IMG/VR virus record: IMGVR_UViG_3300020463_000115
Span: 1-26,286 of that record
DNA length: 26,286 nt
Source: a virus
Reading direction: 5' to 3' (one strand)
Shown: positions 8,557 to 20,870 of the stretch, one piece after another
Layout of the letters: the number at the start of each line of letters is the position of its first letter
Position numbering within the stretch: position 1 is the first letter of the stretch
The notes under the pieces: generated by a model
The model's database searches: none
Told to the model about the DNA's origin: nothing
Seen by the model: only the letters and a program-made list of their open reading frames with translations
Program-made: the position numbers and the translations under genes

Positions 8557-9543
8557 CTAGCTCACTGTTCCGCCGTTGTTACCAATCAACTGCCAATTTC
8601 CGCCATCCCAAATCATATGACAACCTTGATTGTTATTCAAAGCTATGTTAGTTCCTGGTCCAAAATTGGCTGGAGTGATAGTAGCAGCACCAGCATTCTT
8701 ATTTGTAAATATCTTATATTCTCCTACCGTTGTACCGTCAGCCACAGAAACAGATATTGGTGTTGCTGAATTAGATAGAATAAACGATTTAGAAGTATCC
8801 GCAGCTCCAGTAGCCGTAATTGTAGAAACACCATGAGCGCCTTTATCAATTTCTACTGATCCGGTACCCTTGCCTGCCATGTTTAAATTAACGTTAGGAT
8901 CATCTCCACCTGCACTTAAAACAGGATTAGTACCAGTAGCAGAATTTTGTACACTAATATAATTTACAGCACTTCCTATTGCAGTAATACCAAAGACTTC
9001 AGCTCCGTTTACATCCGCAATGTAACCACTAATTTTTGGCTGAGATACTGTTGGAGTCGTAAGAGTCTTATTTGTAAGAGTTGCGGCGTGATCATTAAAT
9101 ACTAAAACATCATCAGCCGCTAAAATAGGTAAGTTAATATTTCTGTCTGCTACTAATTCAGATACAGTAATAAAATAATTATGTGTCGATGATGTATCAT
9201 TAATCCGCGGAGTTTTTAATGTAGGACTTGTTAATGTTTTATTTAATAGAGTTTGCGTGGCTGAATCAAGTACAACATTACCAGAAGTATTTGGCAAAGT
9301 TATAGTATTGTCCTGTGAAGGATCTTGAGCATTTAAAATTGTTTCGTTCGTATCATCAGTCTCGCCTTCGAAAAGAAGACCTCCGCCGGCGACAGTCAAA
9401 GAACCTGTCAGAGTATCACTGTCTCCACCAAGTTTATTGTATAGCTCAACAAAATTTTCATTAATCTTTTGACCAGCTTGACGAAGCGTATCACCGCTTC
9501 CATCGTTAGCAAAAGTGCCAGTTGATATGTTCTGACGAGTCAT
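8557..9543 (-). CDS. Tail-fibre-like protein with gp10-type N-terminus (328 aa)
   Basis: The first 40 residues, including GTFANDGSGDTLRQAGQKIN and ENFVELYNKLG, match the start of T4 gp10 (NVVDDGTGDYLRKGGIKINENFDELYYELG), the segment that ties gp10 to the wedge. The rest is repetitive beta structure with two related units, LNKTLTSPTLKTPRI (100-114) and LTNKTLTTPTVSQPKI (156-171), then glycine-rich segments and a C-terminal MIWDGGNWQLIGN motif typical of fibre tips. T4 gp10 is about 602 residues, so this is a short relative that keeps the anchor but has a different body. An AGAGG site 6 bases before the ATG and an exact late promoter box upstream fix the start. It heads the gp10-like/gp8/giant-protein block. 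A separate short fibre borrowing the gp10 anchor is equally possible. Confidence 0.72.
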   Translation of the reverse strand: MTRQNISTGTFANDGSGDTLRQAGQKINENFVELYNKLGGDSDTLTGSLTVAGGGLLFEGETDDTNETILNAQDPSQDNTITLPNTSGNVVLDSATQTLLNKTLTSPTLKTPRINDTSSTHNYFITVSELVADRNINLPILAADDVLVFNDHAATLTNKTLTTPTVSQPKISGYIADVNGAEVFGITAIGSAVNYISVQNSATGTNPVLSAGGDDPNVNLNMAGKGTGSVEIDKGAHGVSTITATGAADTSKSFILSNSATPISVSVADGTTVGEYKIFTNKNAGAATITPANFGPGTNIALNNNQGCHMIWDGGNWQLIGNNGGTVS

Positions 9544-9576: not shown

Positions 9577-11100
9577 CTAAAACGATACATATTCGGTGTT
9601 GACGGAGAGATTAATCGGCCTATGGTCGCTAAAAGGCCAATAAGCAATTCTGCCTGATCCGTCTTGTAAATTCCTATTATTTGTAAAATAACTTGTGTTA
9701 TCAGTATCACCAACATACAACAAGCCTGTCTTAGCATTATTTATAAACCATTCTCTGACCTGTTTTGGAGTCATACCTGGATTCATTTGCATTAAAAGTG
9801 CAGCCATGCCAGCAACCTGTGGCGCGGCCATACTTGTTCCTGAATAATTTAGATAACTGCTATTAGAATATGAGCCGCCACTTATAACATTAGTTCCTGC
9901 TGCCCAAACATCTACGCGCGGACCTTTTTCACTTGATAAAGCTGTCGCTTCTGAAGAAGAATATAAACCTGAATCCATATTACCTACAACAATAGTATCT
10001 TCGCCGATGTTACTGGCTCCTCTATTATAATAAAGTGGCGATCCTGCACTAACATTTCCTTGATTCGCTTGTGATGTAAAGTAATTATCGTAATCTAGGC
10101 CACCTTCAACATCTAGTTTTTGATATTGATTTCCGGCTGATTTAGTAACAATAATACCTTCATCTTGCATTTCTTCTACTTCAGATTGTAATCCATAAAT
10201 AGGGCAATTAACTCTAGAAGAAGAATCTCCTATTAGACCATACGAACTACTAGCAGCAGTCGCTCCAGTATTTGTGCCTCTATAAACAATATTAGTAACA
10301 TATGATGCACCGCTATAATAATGATACGTTTTAAATCCCCAACTCATATTTACAATTGTTGGTCTTCGGTATCCTGTGGTAGGATCTACTGATTTATTCT
10401 TATGAAATTCTTTTACAGCATCAAACCAAAAAGTACTATTACCAATACCGTATGTCGAAGAAGCAGGCATACTATATAACTGAGCTTTTGGCGCCCAACC
10501 AACCGTATTACCTCCCATAGTTCCTAAGACGTGTGTAGCATGATCACCGTATGATAACGAACTTGTATAATTGATAGTATTTGCACCACTCATATTTGGT
10601 AACGTATTCCATTGAAGCTGATTATATCTACCAGTAAACTGCTCATGATCATATCTAGCAGTATCTCCTTCATGCACAACTACGTCGACGCCCTCACCAT
10701 CTAGATGTCCAGTATATTTTTCAGTCGAGCGTTGACCTGTTACACTCGATCCCCATCCGTTTGTTGCTTCAATGTGTCGTAATAATCCCCAATTATTTTG
10801 GTTTGTATTATTACTTGATCGTTCCCAATTATTTCTATGATTATATTCAAAATCTAAAAAGTTATCGTCCCACTCAATGGGAGTATGTACACTATTAACT
10901 CGTGGATCTGATCGTAGTGTCTCAGCTTCTTCGTCTGTTAAAGCCATATTAAAATGACGCTTACTACCATCTCGGCTATTAACTACATCAACAGCTCGAG
11001 CCGGAACATAATCGTTTCCAGCTTCTGCCGTGAGTTCGTCTTTCAGAGGGTCTTTACTCTGACCCTTTTCCATTGCTATTATATAATCTTTTTGTGACAT
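9577..11100 (-). CDS. Subtilisin-like serine protease (peptidase S8) with inhibitor-like propeptide
   Basis: The catalytic core is clear: His187 in GDHATHVLGTMGG, the oxyanion Asn324 in KSAGNQ and the nucleophile Ser423 in GTSMAAPQVAG. The usual Asp strand reads VDVVVHEGDT (138-147), with Glu144 where Asp normally lies and Asp146 two residues on. Residues about 50-71 (FNMALTDEEAETLRSDPRVN) look like an I9-type propeptide that would fold and inhibit the enzyme until cleaved. There is no signal peptide, so it is made in the host cytoplasm, as expected for a virion protein. It sits between a tail fibre and the gp10-like gene in a baseplate operon. It may be a virion-borne protease acting on host surface proteins, or a maturation enzyme for a fibre; the sequence does not decide between these. 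Confidence 0.9.
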   Translation of the reverse strand: MSQKDYIIAMEKGQSKDPLKDELTAEAGNDYVPARAVDVVNSRDGSKRHFNMALTDEEAETLRSDPRVNSVHTPIEWDDNFLDFEYNHRNNWERSSNNTNQNNWGLLRHIEATNGWGSSVTGQRSTEKYTGHLDGEGVDVVVHEGDTARYDHEQFTGRYNQLQWNTLPNMSGANTINYTSSLSYGDHATHVLGTMGGNTVGWAPKAQLYSMPASSTYGIGNSTFWFDAVKEFHKNKSVDPTTGYRRPTIVNMSWGFKTYHYYSGASYVTNIVYRGTNTGATAASSSYGLIGDSSSRVNCPIYGLQSEVEEMQDEGIIVTKSAGNQYQKLDVEGGLDYDNYFTSQANQGNVSAGSPLYYNRGASNIGEDTIVVGNMDSGLYSSSEATALSSEKGPRVDVWAAGTNVISGGSYSNSSYLNYSGTSMAAPQVAGMAALLMQMNPGMTPKQVREWFINNAKTGLLYVGDTDNTSYFTNNRNLQDGSGRIAYWPFSDHRPINLSVNTEYVSF

Positions 11101-11107
11101 AGCTTAC

Positions 11108-12724
11108 CTATATAATATTAATAGTATTACCCATTGATCCGTGTGAAGTACATTGATAATACAACGTAGATGGTGCACTCATAGGAACTTTAAATGTAAT
11201 TGTCCCGCTTGAGCTACCGTTATTTGTTACGCCTGTACTGTATGCAGATCCACCAGCGCTAGCTCTAATCTCAAAGGGATGTGAACCACCAGAATTATTT
11301 ACAAAATAATATGTTTCGCCTCTACGCAAATATAACAAAGGATCGTTTTCAGGAGAAGGAAACCAATGTCCGTCAGGATCATTAAAGATATAATGACTGC
11401 TTCCGCTTGCTGTAAGTGTAAACAACGAAGCGCCTCGTGTCATAGCTGTCCAACCACCACGTTGATAGATCTCAAACTGACCGTTATCAGTATTATAAAT
11501 TATCTCACCGTTTGCTGCAGTTAAAGATCCTCTTTGTGACGTAGTAAGAGAAGCAACTCTAAATCCGCCGCCTGAAACAGTAACAGATCCACCGACCGTC
11601 ATATTAATATTAGACGACGATGTAAGTGTAGGTGTTCCTGCTGTACTTGTTCGAATTGAATTAATAATAAGACCATCGGAATCAAACTTGCCTACATCTG
11701 CACCTTTGACTCGAATGTCAATCTCGTCATCAACACTTGCATGGAATGATGTATCACCATCTGCATCCATTACTAGTTCGGTTCCGCTCATATCAATAGA
11801 TGAACCACTTGCAACGTAAGTTCCTAAATCACTAATCTGAGATTCAGTTATTGTTAGTGCAGCTTGATGCGCAACTACATCTGAATCTGTTACGGTATAA
11901 CCAGTAATGTACGATTGTAATTTGCCCCTTAAGTTGTTTCCTGCTGAATCGCTAATCTTATTTTCTGCAATCGCTAAAGAACCTTGATGTTGAGTAACAG
12001 CCGAAGCCGGTACATTTGCATCAGGAATATTAGCCCAGGTAACTGCGGCAGACAAATCGTTTGTTTCAGTATAGCTTGTTAAGTAACCCGATAAATCTGG
12101 CGGTGTATATGAGAATACGCCTGTACCGTTATTATACGATAAGGTAGCTGATCCTGCAGCATTTGTAGAAACACTAAAGTCAGCATATCCTAGGCCACCG
12201 CCTCCACCACCGCCACTTACGTCGGCAGCTGCTATAAACATTCCTTGAGCTGAATCCCATTTAAGAATCTGGTTGTTGGAGATGCCAGACATATTAATAT
12301 CTGTGTGTCCGCCTACACTACCGATTCTAGCAGAAACATAGTTTGAATCAACAAGCGATATTGTTTTAGCCGAGTCGATTCCGGTACCGACATCATCAAA
12401 GTCGGCAAGCTTTATCCAAGCTCCACCATGTGCATAGTAAGCTTTTCCCTCACCGTGAACGTGAGCAAACATACCATGATACGTTCCAGCAGCTGGTAAT
12501 GCGCCAAGCGAATCATAGTTATTCGAATATAATATTTTATGTGTTCCAAAATTTATATCAGAATCGCCGGCGATAGTATTTAAATGTATACTACCTTGTG
12601 CAGCTTGCGCTATAGTTGAAATTGCAGCCGAATCTAAGTCAGCATTCTGCAATGTGGTAAAGTTGGCATCGAGTTCGACGTGGGTCAATGCCGTCCCTTT
12701 AGTATTTCGTAATGTAATTGCCAT
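11108..12724 (-). CDS. Tail fibre with C-terminal cupredoxin-like domain (538 aa)
   Basis: The start, MAITLRNTKGTALTHVELDA followed by NFTTLQN, is a baseplate-anchor motif of the same style as INENFVELYN in the gp10-like protein. The body is a fibre of Ser/Asp/Ala-rich beta segments with a seven-glycine hinge (171-177). A segment of fibre-tip style, EIIYNTDNGQFEIYQRGGW (407-425), precedes the end domain. Residues about 431-538 form a blue-copper-like beta domain with all four type I ligands: His482 in GGSHPFEI, then Cys525, His528 and Met531 in YYQCTSHGSMGN. The Cys-x2-His-x2-Met spacing is that of amicyanin. An AGAGG site 6 bases before the ATG supports the start. The protein is probably exposed on the baseplate; whether it binds copper or only keeps the fold is unknown. 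Confidence 0.8.
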   Translation of the reverse strand: MAITLRNTKGTALTHVELDANFTTLQNADLDSAAISTIAQAAQGSIHLNTIAGDSDINFGTHKILYSNNYDSLGALPAAGTYHGMFAHVHGEGKAYYAHGGAWIKLADFDDVGTGIDSAKTISLVDSNYVSARIGSVGGHTDINMSGISNNQILKWDSAQGMFIAAADVSGGGGGGGLGYADFSVSTNAAGSATLSYNNGTGVFSYTPPDLSGYLTSYTETNDLSAAVTWANIPDANVPASAVTQHQGSLAIAENKISDSAGNNLRGKLQSYITGYTVTDSDVVAHQAALTITESQISDLGTYVASGSSIDMSGTELVMDADGDTSFHASVDDEIDIRVKGADVGKFDSDGLIINSIRTSTAGTPTLTSSSNINMTVGGSVTVSGGGFRVASLTTSQRGSLTAANGEIIYNTDNGQFEIYQRGGWTAMTRGASLFTLTASGSSHYIFNDPDGHWFPSPENDPLLYLRRGETYYFVNNSGGSHPFEIRASAGGSAYSTGVTNNGSSSGTITFKVPMSAPSTLYYQCTSHGSMGNTINII

Positions 12725-18471: not shown

Positions 18472-19992
18472 TTATGGCTCTAGAGCAATCTCTGCAGAAT
18501 TGAGTGGAGGGCTAGTACCATATTCTGATACATTTATTTTTCCAAAATGATTTTCCACATAATTAGAAAGATCGAATCCTGGATCTGGAGCTCTTTGCGG
18601 ATCAGTTTCTCTATGACTCCACGCTTGGCCACCGGGCCATACTTTATAAAAATCAGTCATAAAAGATTTAAGTGTTTTTCTTTGCACAGGATTAATAGAC
18701 TCTACGCCATATGGAGGATTTGCTAATCCAGAATTTGAGTTAACCGTGTATCCACCTACAAGTGCTACACCAATACTATATTTATTGTGACCATTTGTTG
18801 CTGCATGCGCTCCTTTTTGTTGTATCGGCCGGCCTCTTTCAATAGTACCATCATTTCTTATCACATAGTGATAACCAATTCCACTATATCCTGCAGCTAA
18901 ATGCGTTGCATGAATCTCTTCAGATCCTACATCTTGATCTAAAAAGTGACCGGTCCAATGTAGTACAACTTCTGTAATATCACGCGTTGCAGATCTAAAC
19001 TCAGCTTCTAATTCTTCTGTACCACCTACGACCGTAAACTTATATGGATTAACTGCATTCGGATCTTTCCACGTTTCTGTACTACTGCCTTCCCATTTAT
19101 TATCATTTTCACCAATGCTCATTACCGGTAAACTGGTGGAACCAGTATATGTAATTCTACTTGAAACTCTCGTATCAATACCAAGTAAGGTTTCTTCAAT
19201 AAGATTGAAAGGACTATCAGAATTATTTGATACAAACAGTATTGCTTCTGCGTATTTACCTTCGGATAGTAAACGTACAACATTATAATTCTCAAACGTT
19301 TTAAGTTTATTGCCAGTCAACTCGTCAATAATTAACCCTATAGGTCCTGCACTAATATCCATCACGGCTTGTAATATTGGCGAAATTGCATCGCCTATTG
19401 CTAAGTCTACTTTAGAATTAAAATCAGAAATAACTGGAGCAAGTACAGACCCTAAAGATCGCGACAATCCTGCACGTACAAAGTCTTTAATATTGCCAGC
19501 ACCATGAACGCCTTGTATAACGGATACCAAGCTTGTTATGTCTTTCCCAGTTGCTTTTGATAAAAGAGTACCAATAGCCAGGCCCGAACTACCACCATAA
19601 TATGATTTTAAGAATCCTGCAACAGGACTCTCACCTGTTAGTATAGCAAGAGTGCCAAGCGCAGTTAGTACATCAGGAACATCAGCATGACCACTGCCAA
19701 TTCCTGTAAACGCATCATCTATTACTTCAAATAGATCTTCGCCAGTTACTGCTTCAGTTAATTTTACAAGAGCTAAACCTAATACTACGCCTTTTAATTC
19801 ATTACTATAGTTTTGTAGCTGAGTAATGGATTGAAATCCATTTAATGTCTGACCAACATTTTGACCTAATGCAGATGTAAATTTAGCATTGTATTCGCCT
19901 TCAACTGTAGGCGCAGTATTACGAAAGTCTGCGGTGCCTAGTCTCTGATTATATGTAGATAGTGTAGACTGGTATCGATTAAAACTAGTCAT
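18472..19992 (-). CDS. Tail-associated N-acetylmuramoyl-L-alanine amidase (506 aa)
   Basis: The C-terminal domain (about 335-485) is an amidase_2/AmpD-type zinc hydrolase that would cut between muramic acid and the stem peptide. His345 (VVLHWTG), His460 and Asp470 (HRETDPQRAPDPGFD) match the AmpD zinc ligands, including the 10-residue His-Asp spacing. GYHYVIRNDGTIERGRP (373-389) is the family's central motif. The Lys found two residues before the Asp in AmpD is Ala468 here. Residues 1-330 are rich in Gly, Ala, Leu and Ile with long hydrophobic helices (about 67-78, 108-121, 137-146, 200-226) and resemble no lysin domain I know. The gene overlaps the gp5 stop by 1 base (TAATG), so the product is probably a structural hub lysin and not a lysis enzyme. 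Confidence 0.88.
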   Translation of the reverse strand: MTSFNRYQSTLSTYNQRLGTADFRNTAPTVEGEYNAKFTSALGQNVGQTLNGFQSITQLQNYSNELKGVVLGLALVKLTEAVTGEDLFEVIDDAFTGIGSGHADVPDVLTALGTLAILTGESPVAGFLKSYYGGSSGLAIGTLLSKATGKDITSLVSVIQGVHGAGNIKDFVRAGLSRSLGSVLAPVISDFNSKVDLAIGDAISPILQAVMDISAGPIGLIIDELTGNKLKTFENYNVVRLLSEGKYAEAILFVSNNSDSPFNLIEETLLGIDTRVSSRITYTGSTSLPVMSIGENDNKWEGSSTETWKDPNAVNPYKFTVVGGTEELEAEFRSATRDITEVVLHWTGHFLDQDVGSEEIHATHLAAGYSGIGYHYVIRNDGTIERGRPIQQKGAHAATNGHNKYSIGVALVGGYTVNSNSGLANPPYGVESINPVQRKTLKSFMTDFYKVWPGGQAWSHRETDPQRAPDPGFDLSNYVENHFGKINVSEYGTSPPLNSAEIALEP

Positions 19993-20870
19993 TACGCAAT
20001 ACCTCTATATTCATTATATACACTTTGAGCAAAATTAATTCTTTTTTGTCTGGCAGAACCTGAACTTCTTTCATATTTTTCATCAAATATCGTTGCAGCC
20101 ATTGCAACCGAATCAGTACCTTTCAATAGATTACCTGCATTCCTATTTAAACATCCAGACTCGCTATCACAGTTACTTAATTCCCAAACAATAAACTGTA
20201 GCTGATCTATAAACGTGCTATCCTGCCACGGTTTACCATATACTTGTTCAAAGATTCTTCTACGTCCTGGATGCCATTGCGCAATACCTGCAGCTTGGCC
20301 GCCATCACCTCTTGGTCCATGAGCCGGAAGATTTTTTCCAACTTCTGCTATAAGATTTCCTACTATGCCAGCAGATTGTTTTGCGGTAAAACCTCTAGAC
20401 TTAAAGAAATTAAAAGCTTGCGCTACTCGATTTGATCCGACTACTGCAGCATCGTCTTGATTAGTTAATCCTGCTGCTCTAGATAATGCCGGATCAACTT
20501 GTCCTGGGCCATATCCAGTCTCATATTGTATTGCCTTGTCTTGCATATTTTCTAATTGTTGCTCAGACGGTATTTCTATTTTAGGCATTACTCCAAGAAT
20601 GCAAGGTAGTTGTGACTCTTTACCATCTAAAAACATTCCAAATACTTGTGCACCAGGTAAAATTTGTGGCATCATACCAATACCCGAAGTACCACCGGAT
20701 GTTGTCGGTTGTAATACTGTAGCCCATGGTAATGCGTCATTTGGAATTTCTGTTACTTTTCGAGAATGTATACCAAATATTCTTACCTGTACTCTACCAA
20801 GAAGTAGAGGATCTAAATTATTAGTGGCTACACCAATAAACCACCGAACTTCATCTCCGTATTGATTCAT
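19992..20870 (-). CDS. gp5: Baseplate hub gp5-like protein: OB-fold plus tail lysozyme (292 aa)
   Basis: Residues 1-95 are a gp5-type OB-fold with WFIGVATNNLDPLLLGRVQV and LPWATVLQP, ending in LPCILGVMP; in T4 this domain joins gp5 to gp27. Residues about 148-292 are a tail lysozyme of the Phage_lysozyme2 type: GFTAKQSAGIVGNLIAEVGK with Glu176 as candidate catalytic acid, then RGDGGQAAGIAQWHPGRR. It would cleave peptidoglycan in the periplasm during injection. The needle part of T4 gp5 is missing and is encoded two genes downstream. Two cysteines (234 and 240) bracket an acidic loop and could pair. The ATG overlaps the stop of the gp27-like gene (ATGA), so the OB-fold partner pair is made together. 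Confidence 0.85.
   Translation of the reverse strand: MNQYGDEVRWFIGVATNNLDPLLLGRVQVRIFGIHSRKVTEIPNDALPWATVLQPTTSGGTSGIGMMPQILPGAQVFGMFLDGKESQLPCILGVMPKIEIPSEQQLENMQDKAIQYETGYGPGQVDPALSRAAGLTNQDDAAVVGSNRVAQAFNFFKSRGFTAKQSAGIVGNLIAEVGKNLPAHGPRGDGGQAAGIAQWHPGRRRIFEQVYGKPWQDSTFIDQLQFIVWELSNCDSESGCLNRNAGNLLKGTDSVAMAATIFDEKYERSSGSARQKRINFAQSVYNEYRGIA

Follow-up and report, generated by a model that had tools for sequence, protein, structure and literature searches.

Type-1 cupredoxins are classical blue copper proteins, known from photosynthesis and respiration. The domain that ends the marine phage tail fibre described here has in common with plastocyanin, amicyanin, rusticyanin and the N-terminal domain of the nitrite reductase 2dv6 a predicted fold and the order of its ligands, with a ligand loop of the amicyanin kind, but it differs from them in being part of a virion fibre, in showing no redox partner, in a sequence similarity that is marginal and in a copper site that is a predicted one. 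Among viral proteins, the cyanophage connector family PHROG 677 matches the domain with its C-terminal 100 positions (E 9e-36), and its isolate members keep the four ligands. The N-terminal anchor of this family differs, however, since its first ~90 positions match not the fibre but a separate gene at 8557-9543 of the window (here, the whole stretch of 26,286 nucleotides that was analysed). Secreted bacterial proteins carry the same domain and the same ligands as the fibre, but they are cellular. The HxH sites of T4 gp37, discussed as part of the Ferrojan horse idea (PMC11705849), also place a metal on a phage fibre and in a marine setting; they are inter-chain His sites that hold iron on another fold, whereas the site of the present fibre would be mononuclear and contained within one domain.

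A search of a literature that lay largely outside subscription journals found no papers linking cupredoxin, plastocyanin-like or copper-binding to phage fibres, and neither 'cupredoxin' nor 'plastocyanin' is used in the published cryo-EM studies of cyanophages P-SCSP1u and A-1(L). The fold and type-1 sites are themselves classical, and domain databases may already tag the fold, but the presence of a conserved type-1 site on virion fibres seems not to have been reported.

The fibre gene and its locus

The gene lies on the minus strand at window positions 11108-12724 (stop codon included) and encodes a tail fibre or connector-like protein of 538 amino acids. Profile searches matched residues 195-537 to PHROG 677 ('baseplate wedge tail fiber protein connector', E 1.2e-46) and the fibre to PHROG 9729 ('tail fiber protein', E 8e-36), while a Pfam scan matched no family to the whole fibre. 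The same scan did not find the T4 gp9/gp10 N-terminal anchor PF07880 in the fibre ORF; PF07880 hits the separate gene at 8557-9543. The fibre gene belongs to a T4-like virus and stands in its cluster of tail and baseplate genes; products of genes nearby match gp6, gp8, baseplate wedge proteins and a gp9/10 N-terminal domain. The nearest isolates by the gp6-like protein are Phage C48C1 (42% identity) and, both at 33%, Methylophilales phages Melnitz and pelagiphage HTVC008M. At 26,286 bases, the virus record would be only part of the genome, should the virus have the size of T4-like phages.

Other features of the locus can be noted. An HVH (His-x-His) motif at fibre residues 88-90 (window 12455-12463, minus strand) is kept in most close relatives; motifs of this type have been discussed as iron-binding sites on the fibres of other phages (PMC11705849). 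Two tail proteins on the minus strand contain stretches that suggest possible cell-wall hydrolases by eye, one amidase-like (18472-19992) and the next lysozyme-like at its C-terminus (19992-20870).

Predicted structure of the C-terminal domain

The last 108 residues of the fibre (431-538; window 11111-11434, minus strand, the plus strand of which holds many stops) were modelled by AlphaFold2 with 40 relatives at a pLDDT of 96.0 and a pTM of 0.88. Foldseek recovered 23 PDB chains at E ≤0.001, and all of them were cupredoxins or copper proteins containing one, including rusticyanin, nitrite reductase, AcoP, plastocyanin, amicyanin, McoA and a caa3 oxidase chain. In VIA-align, residues 25-131 of 2dv6 (the N-terminal domain of the Hyphomicrobium denitrificans nitrite reductase) superposed with a Z of 11.1, an rmsd of 2.0 Å over 92 residues and 23% identity, and rusticyanin followed with a Z of 10.1. 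In the model, the strand at domain residues 90-95 ends with the Cys, and the loop from there to the strand at 102-107 contains the second His and the Met, as in cupredoxins. When predicted viral structures were compared, tail and baseplate proteins of cyanophages were the best matches, followed by proteins with an S8 protease and, lower down, by giant-virus 'beta-sandwich' proteins; sequence searches found no solved structure of a viral relative. A cupredoxin fold, that is, a Greek-key β-sandwich, is well supported for the modelled domain. The sequence-only reading had proposed such a domain and had named beforehand a non-cupredoxin prediction as the outcome that would speak against it, and its proposal was borne out by the confidence of the model and by the matches to solved cupredoxins. 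The comparison with amicyanin that it suggested held in part: amicyanin was among the Foldseek matches and the loop spacing agrees, but the closest solved folds are the 2dv6 N-terminal domain and rusticyanin.

Similarity at sequence level is far lower. The domain scores 14.0 bits against PF00127 (Copper-bind), under the curated cut-off of 21.2, and is not a member of that family by score, and the profile matches six of 23 divergent members of the phage and bacterial set at E ≤0.01 (best 1e-4). Similarly, its score of 14.6 bits against the plant At5g54830-like family PF25489 falls under the curated cut-off of 27. This profile weakly matches 28 of 40 phage copies at E ≤1 (best 1.5e-5), and such weak matches hint at a wider cupredoxin-like family that may reach plants. 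A sequence relationship to amicyanin beyond the C-x2-H-x2-M loop is possible, with E values of 7e-4 in Foldseek and 0.53 in phmmer. The family profile also reaches a plastocyanin-like protein (L288) in a genome of the Prochlorococcus family, with all four ligands paired in the alignment. A recent capture of host plastocyanin (petE) is nevertheless unsupported, since the link between plastocyanin and the domain is remote (phmmer E 0.019; hhalign probability 51%) and petE, a gene known in cyanophages (PMC3037559), is separate.

The predicted copper site and its conservation

The four type I ligands that the sequence-only reading had placed in order within the last 108 residues were found where it put them. 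His482, the first predicted ligand, is encoded at window positions 11279-11281, followed on the same minus strand by the predicted ligands Cys525 (11150-11152) and His528 (11141-11143) and by Met531 (11132-11134), the expected axial ligand. These correspond to domain residues 52, 95, 98 and 101, and each is invariant in 23 divergent copies. The loop reads C-TS-H-GS-M, which confirms the amicyanin-like Cys-x2-His-x2-Met spacing, and the 43 residues that separate the first His from the Cys recur in 97 of 109 scored copies. His, Cys, His and Met are thus placed in the predicted fold as in type-1 blue copper sites, with His and Met in one loop after the Cys. Cys525 is the sole Cys of the fibre, and the ligand Cys is likewise the only one in 103 of 128 complete carriers, which rules out an intrachain disulfide role. 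Outside the domain, Cys accounts for 51 of 59,094 residues.

The ligands were surveyed in viral sequences by scans with peptide patterns. None of the patterns of the first scan covers either His or the Cys, so that scan is unbiased for these three ligands; one pattern of the second scan includes the first His. In the first pass, H, C, H and M were found in 116 of 127 distinct matches; six matches reading 'YCHM' are partial alignments to the divergent domain of a neighbouring long protein. After further scans, C-x2-H-x2-M was kept in 128 of the 135 distinct copies of at least 85 amino acids, and in isolate records it was present in all 19 full copies, including the very divergent ones of MED4-213, Sf-CH1b, S-TIM61 and Melnitz-3. 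Copies from cellular genomes keep it in 23 of 28 cases, and the other five have Cys-x2-His with the Met three to five residues on.

Departures from the pattern were of several kinds. One clade of three copies (L048, L054 and L179), encoded in 235-aa stop-to-stop ORFs, carries N or D at the first His, S at the Cys and N at the second His, and has no Cys anywhere in the protein; this clade provides a natural control that lacks the site. Both His are replaced (by Y and F) in L235, Lys replaces the Met in the divergent L241, and a further copy in a long S-SM1 protein is without the site. C-x2-H-x2-M is also missing from L160, a copy cut by the contig end.

When 23 divergent phage and bacterial copies were aligned, eight of ~103 columns were invariant (G39, H52, P53, F54, Y93, C95, H98 and M101), and all four ligands were among them, an outcome with a probability of ~1.6e-5 if invariant columns are placed randomly. 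A chance motif is ruled out by conservation across 30-95% identity. We read these patterns of substitution as indicating selection for a metal site that may be lost occasionally as a unit and not residue by residue. Homologues that freely lose the Cys or His, which had been named as grounds for abandoning the copper site, were not what we found, losses being few and coordinated; and the option that the domain is only a fold is made unlikely by the conservation of the ligands. Overall, there is good support for a genuine cupredoxin at the fibre end whose type-1 copper site is complete. That this end is the tip of the fibre is presumed from the C-terminal position of the domain, the full-length model (pLDDT 51.5) being too poor to show where the domain lies.

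Distribution and domain architecture

A tblastn search at E 0.001 found the domain in 336 phage records, nearly all of cyanophages, typically as the last part of a protein labelled gp9 or tail fiber connector. Isolates with the domain include S-SM1, P-SSM7, Syn30 and S-RIM2. In the Prochlorococcus podovirus P-SCSP2 it lies near the protein N-terminus. Among the loci that were fetched, 121 of 146 copies were C-terminal and 25 were internal. Carriers begin with several unrelated-looking kinds of N-termini (the MAITLR-, NDGxGDxLR-, MAEFKIDRIRFRW-, IKISEL- and MANRYPLI-types), a diversity that marks the domain as a swappable module. In a collagen-like phage fibre (L089) the cupredoxin is internal. 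Furthermore, divergent cupredoxin-like modules occur in long ORFs near the fibre gene of other phages (L131, L132, L028, L035, L124, L130, L140 and L167). Some of these modules have the complete C-x2-H-x2-M, one of them with THPL as well and an inserted hairpin, while others retain the first His only; the long protein of L131 begins MAEFKIDRIRFRWTGPW.

Bacterial copies (L090-L094 and L268-L278) have all four ligands, are mostly C-terminal, belong to secreted proteins and are 30-52% identical in alignment. The carriers are proteins that we take from their sequences to be CHRD, FAS1 and collagen-like proteins and one short lipoprotein, and we know of no function assigned to them. The secreted collagen-like (GATGATG) proteins L272-L275 end in the same cupredoxin. 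In the class to which a Pricia MAG belongs, 13 of 198 genomes had a match; in the family of a Prochlorococcus SAG 11 of 151 did, and these matches include plastocyanin-like proteins and possibly phage sequence.

Association with an S8 protease

An S8 subtilase gene (9577-11100, minus strand; PF00082, E 9e-26) lies 7 nt downstream of the fibre gene. It belongs with PHROG 9158, in which an S8 protease carries a fused C-terminal cupredoxin, whereas here the two are adjacent genes; this family matches the cupredoxin at E 2e-14 and the protease at E 6e-57. Protease and cupredoxin also occur in one protein in S-H9-1, ACG-2014e and L084. Among 110 loci with at least 1 kb of downstream sequence, an S8 gene was found anywhere in 37 and within 200 nt downstream of the cupredoxin gene in 19, counts that stand without a background S8 frequency for this gene region and make the association a suggestive one. 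Maturation of the fibre and an action on the host surface are two possible tasks of the protease.

Possible roles of the copper site

The C-terminus of a fibre is usually its host-binding end. Host binding by fibre C-termini is described for cyanophages as well (PMC10575957). In the explanation that we favour, each chain of the fibre in the virion would hold one copper ion, supplied by the copper pool of the host or, once the virion is released, by seawater. At the distal face of the fibre this metal would act in structure and docking and not in electron transfer: the loop with His482 and the loop with Cys525, His528 and Met531 would be ordered by copper into a rigid surface for contact with the host. 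Taken whole, this account of a copper-loaded extracellular module at the fibre end, with copper ordering a host-contact face, is put forward tentatively, as one that falls somewhat short of an even chance. Its parts differ in strength: the metal is very probably copper, loading in the virion seems rather likely, and a role in host contact is possible while somewhat doubtful. Host contact is favoured because the domain is mostly C-terminal, follows several kinds of N-termini and belongs to genes that match tail fibre and baseplate families. The sequence of the domain is, however, more conserved than that of many receptor-binding tips, and the existence of a clade that manages without the site and the PF00127 score under the cut-off also count against the favoured explanation.

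The presence of the domain inside proteins as well as at their ends, in S8 proteases and in bacterial secreted proteins means that its role need not be host binding. It could be a structural module only, stabilised by copper, which resists proteases and unfolding and caps or spaces extracellular proteins without touching the host. The great diversity of its carriers, among them the bacterial collagen-like, CHRD and FAS1 proteins, fits such a module, as does the clade that lost the site yet keeps the rest of the domain. However, a purely structural function does not account for the mostly C-terminal location of phage copies or for surface loop residues near the site being so strictly conserved; we consider it unlikely on its own, though it ranks as a close second to a copper-ordered face for host contact. 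A different metal at the site, such as zinc or iron, or an empty site in the virion seems very improbable. Sequence cannot separate copper from other soft metals, and the divergent L241 has Lys for Met, but H and C-x2-H-x2-M on a cupredoxin fold are the signature of type-1 copper and the ligands are lost together, not singly.

Electron-transfer cupredoxins carry a hydrophobic docking patch. The complete type-1 site is a hallmark of electron carriers, and the fibre could transfer electrons or sense redox state at the host surface as classical blue copper proteins do, but next to His528 the loop has small, polar residues (T, S and G), unlike such a patch. There is little support for electron transfer, since neither a partner nor a second cofactor can be seen: no other cofactor motif was recognised in the fibre and no redox partner gene in the window. 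We give this role the least weight of all. A copper-loaded tip might also mimic a copper protein and dock on a copper-handling outer-membrane protein of the host, which would make it a receptor-binding tip. The secreted cupredoxin azurin was reported to bind the outer-membrane copper transporter OprC of Pseudomonas aeruginosa (PMC6907878), and a comparable role has been discussed for iron-binding motifs of phage fibres (PMC11705849), but the interaction of azurin was not reproduced with native OprC (PMC8610252). Mimicry is attractive; its precedent is contested (PMC6907878 versus PMC8610252), and we regard it as improbable.

Significance for marine phages

A bolder conjecture, to which we lend little credence, is that the fibres of a marine T4-like virion bear tens of blue-copper centres, which it needs to recognise its host, docking via copper to an outer-membrane copper-handling protein, so that copper availability in the sea would tune infection. 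Should virions of common marine cyanophages prove to carry mononuclear copper sites, phages would have a part in the trace-metal chemistry of the ocean that goes beyond iron, and their adsorption may be copper-dependent. A domain that is annotated mostly as 'tail fiber connector' or 'hypothetical', and present in more than 300 isolate records, would also gain a first chemistry.
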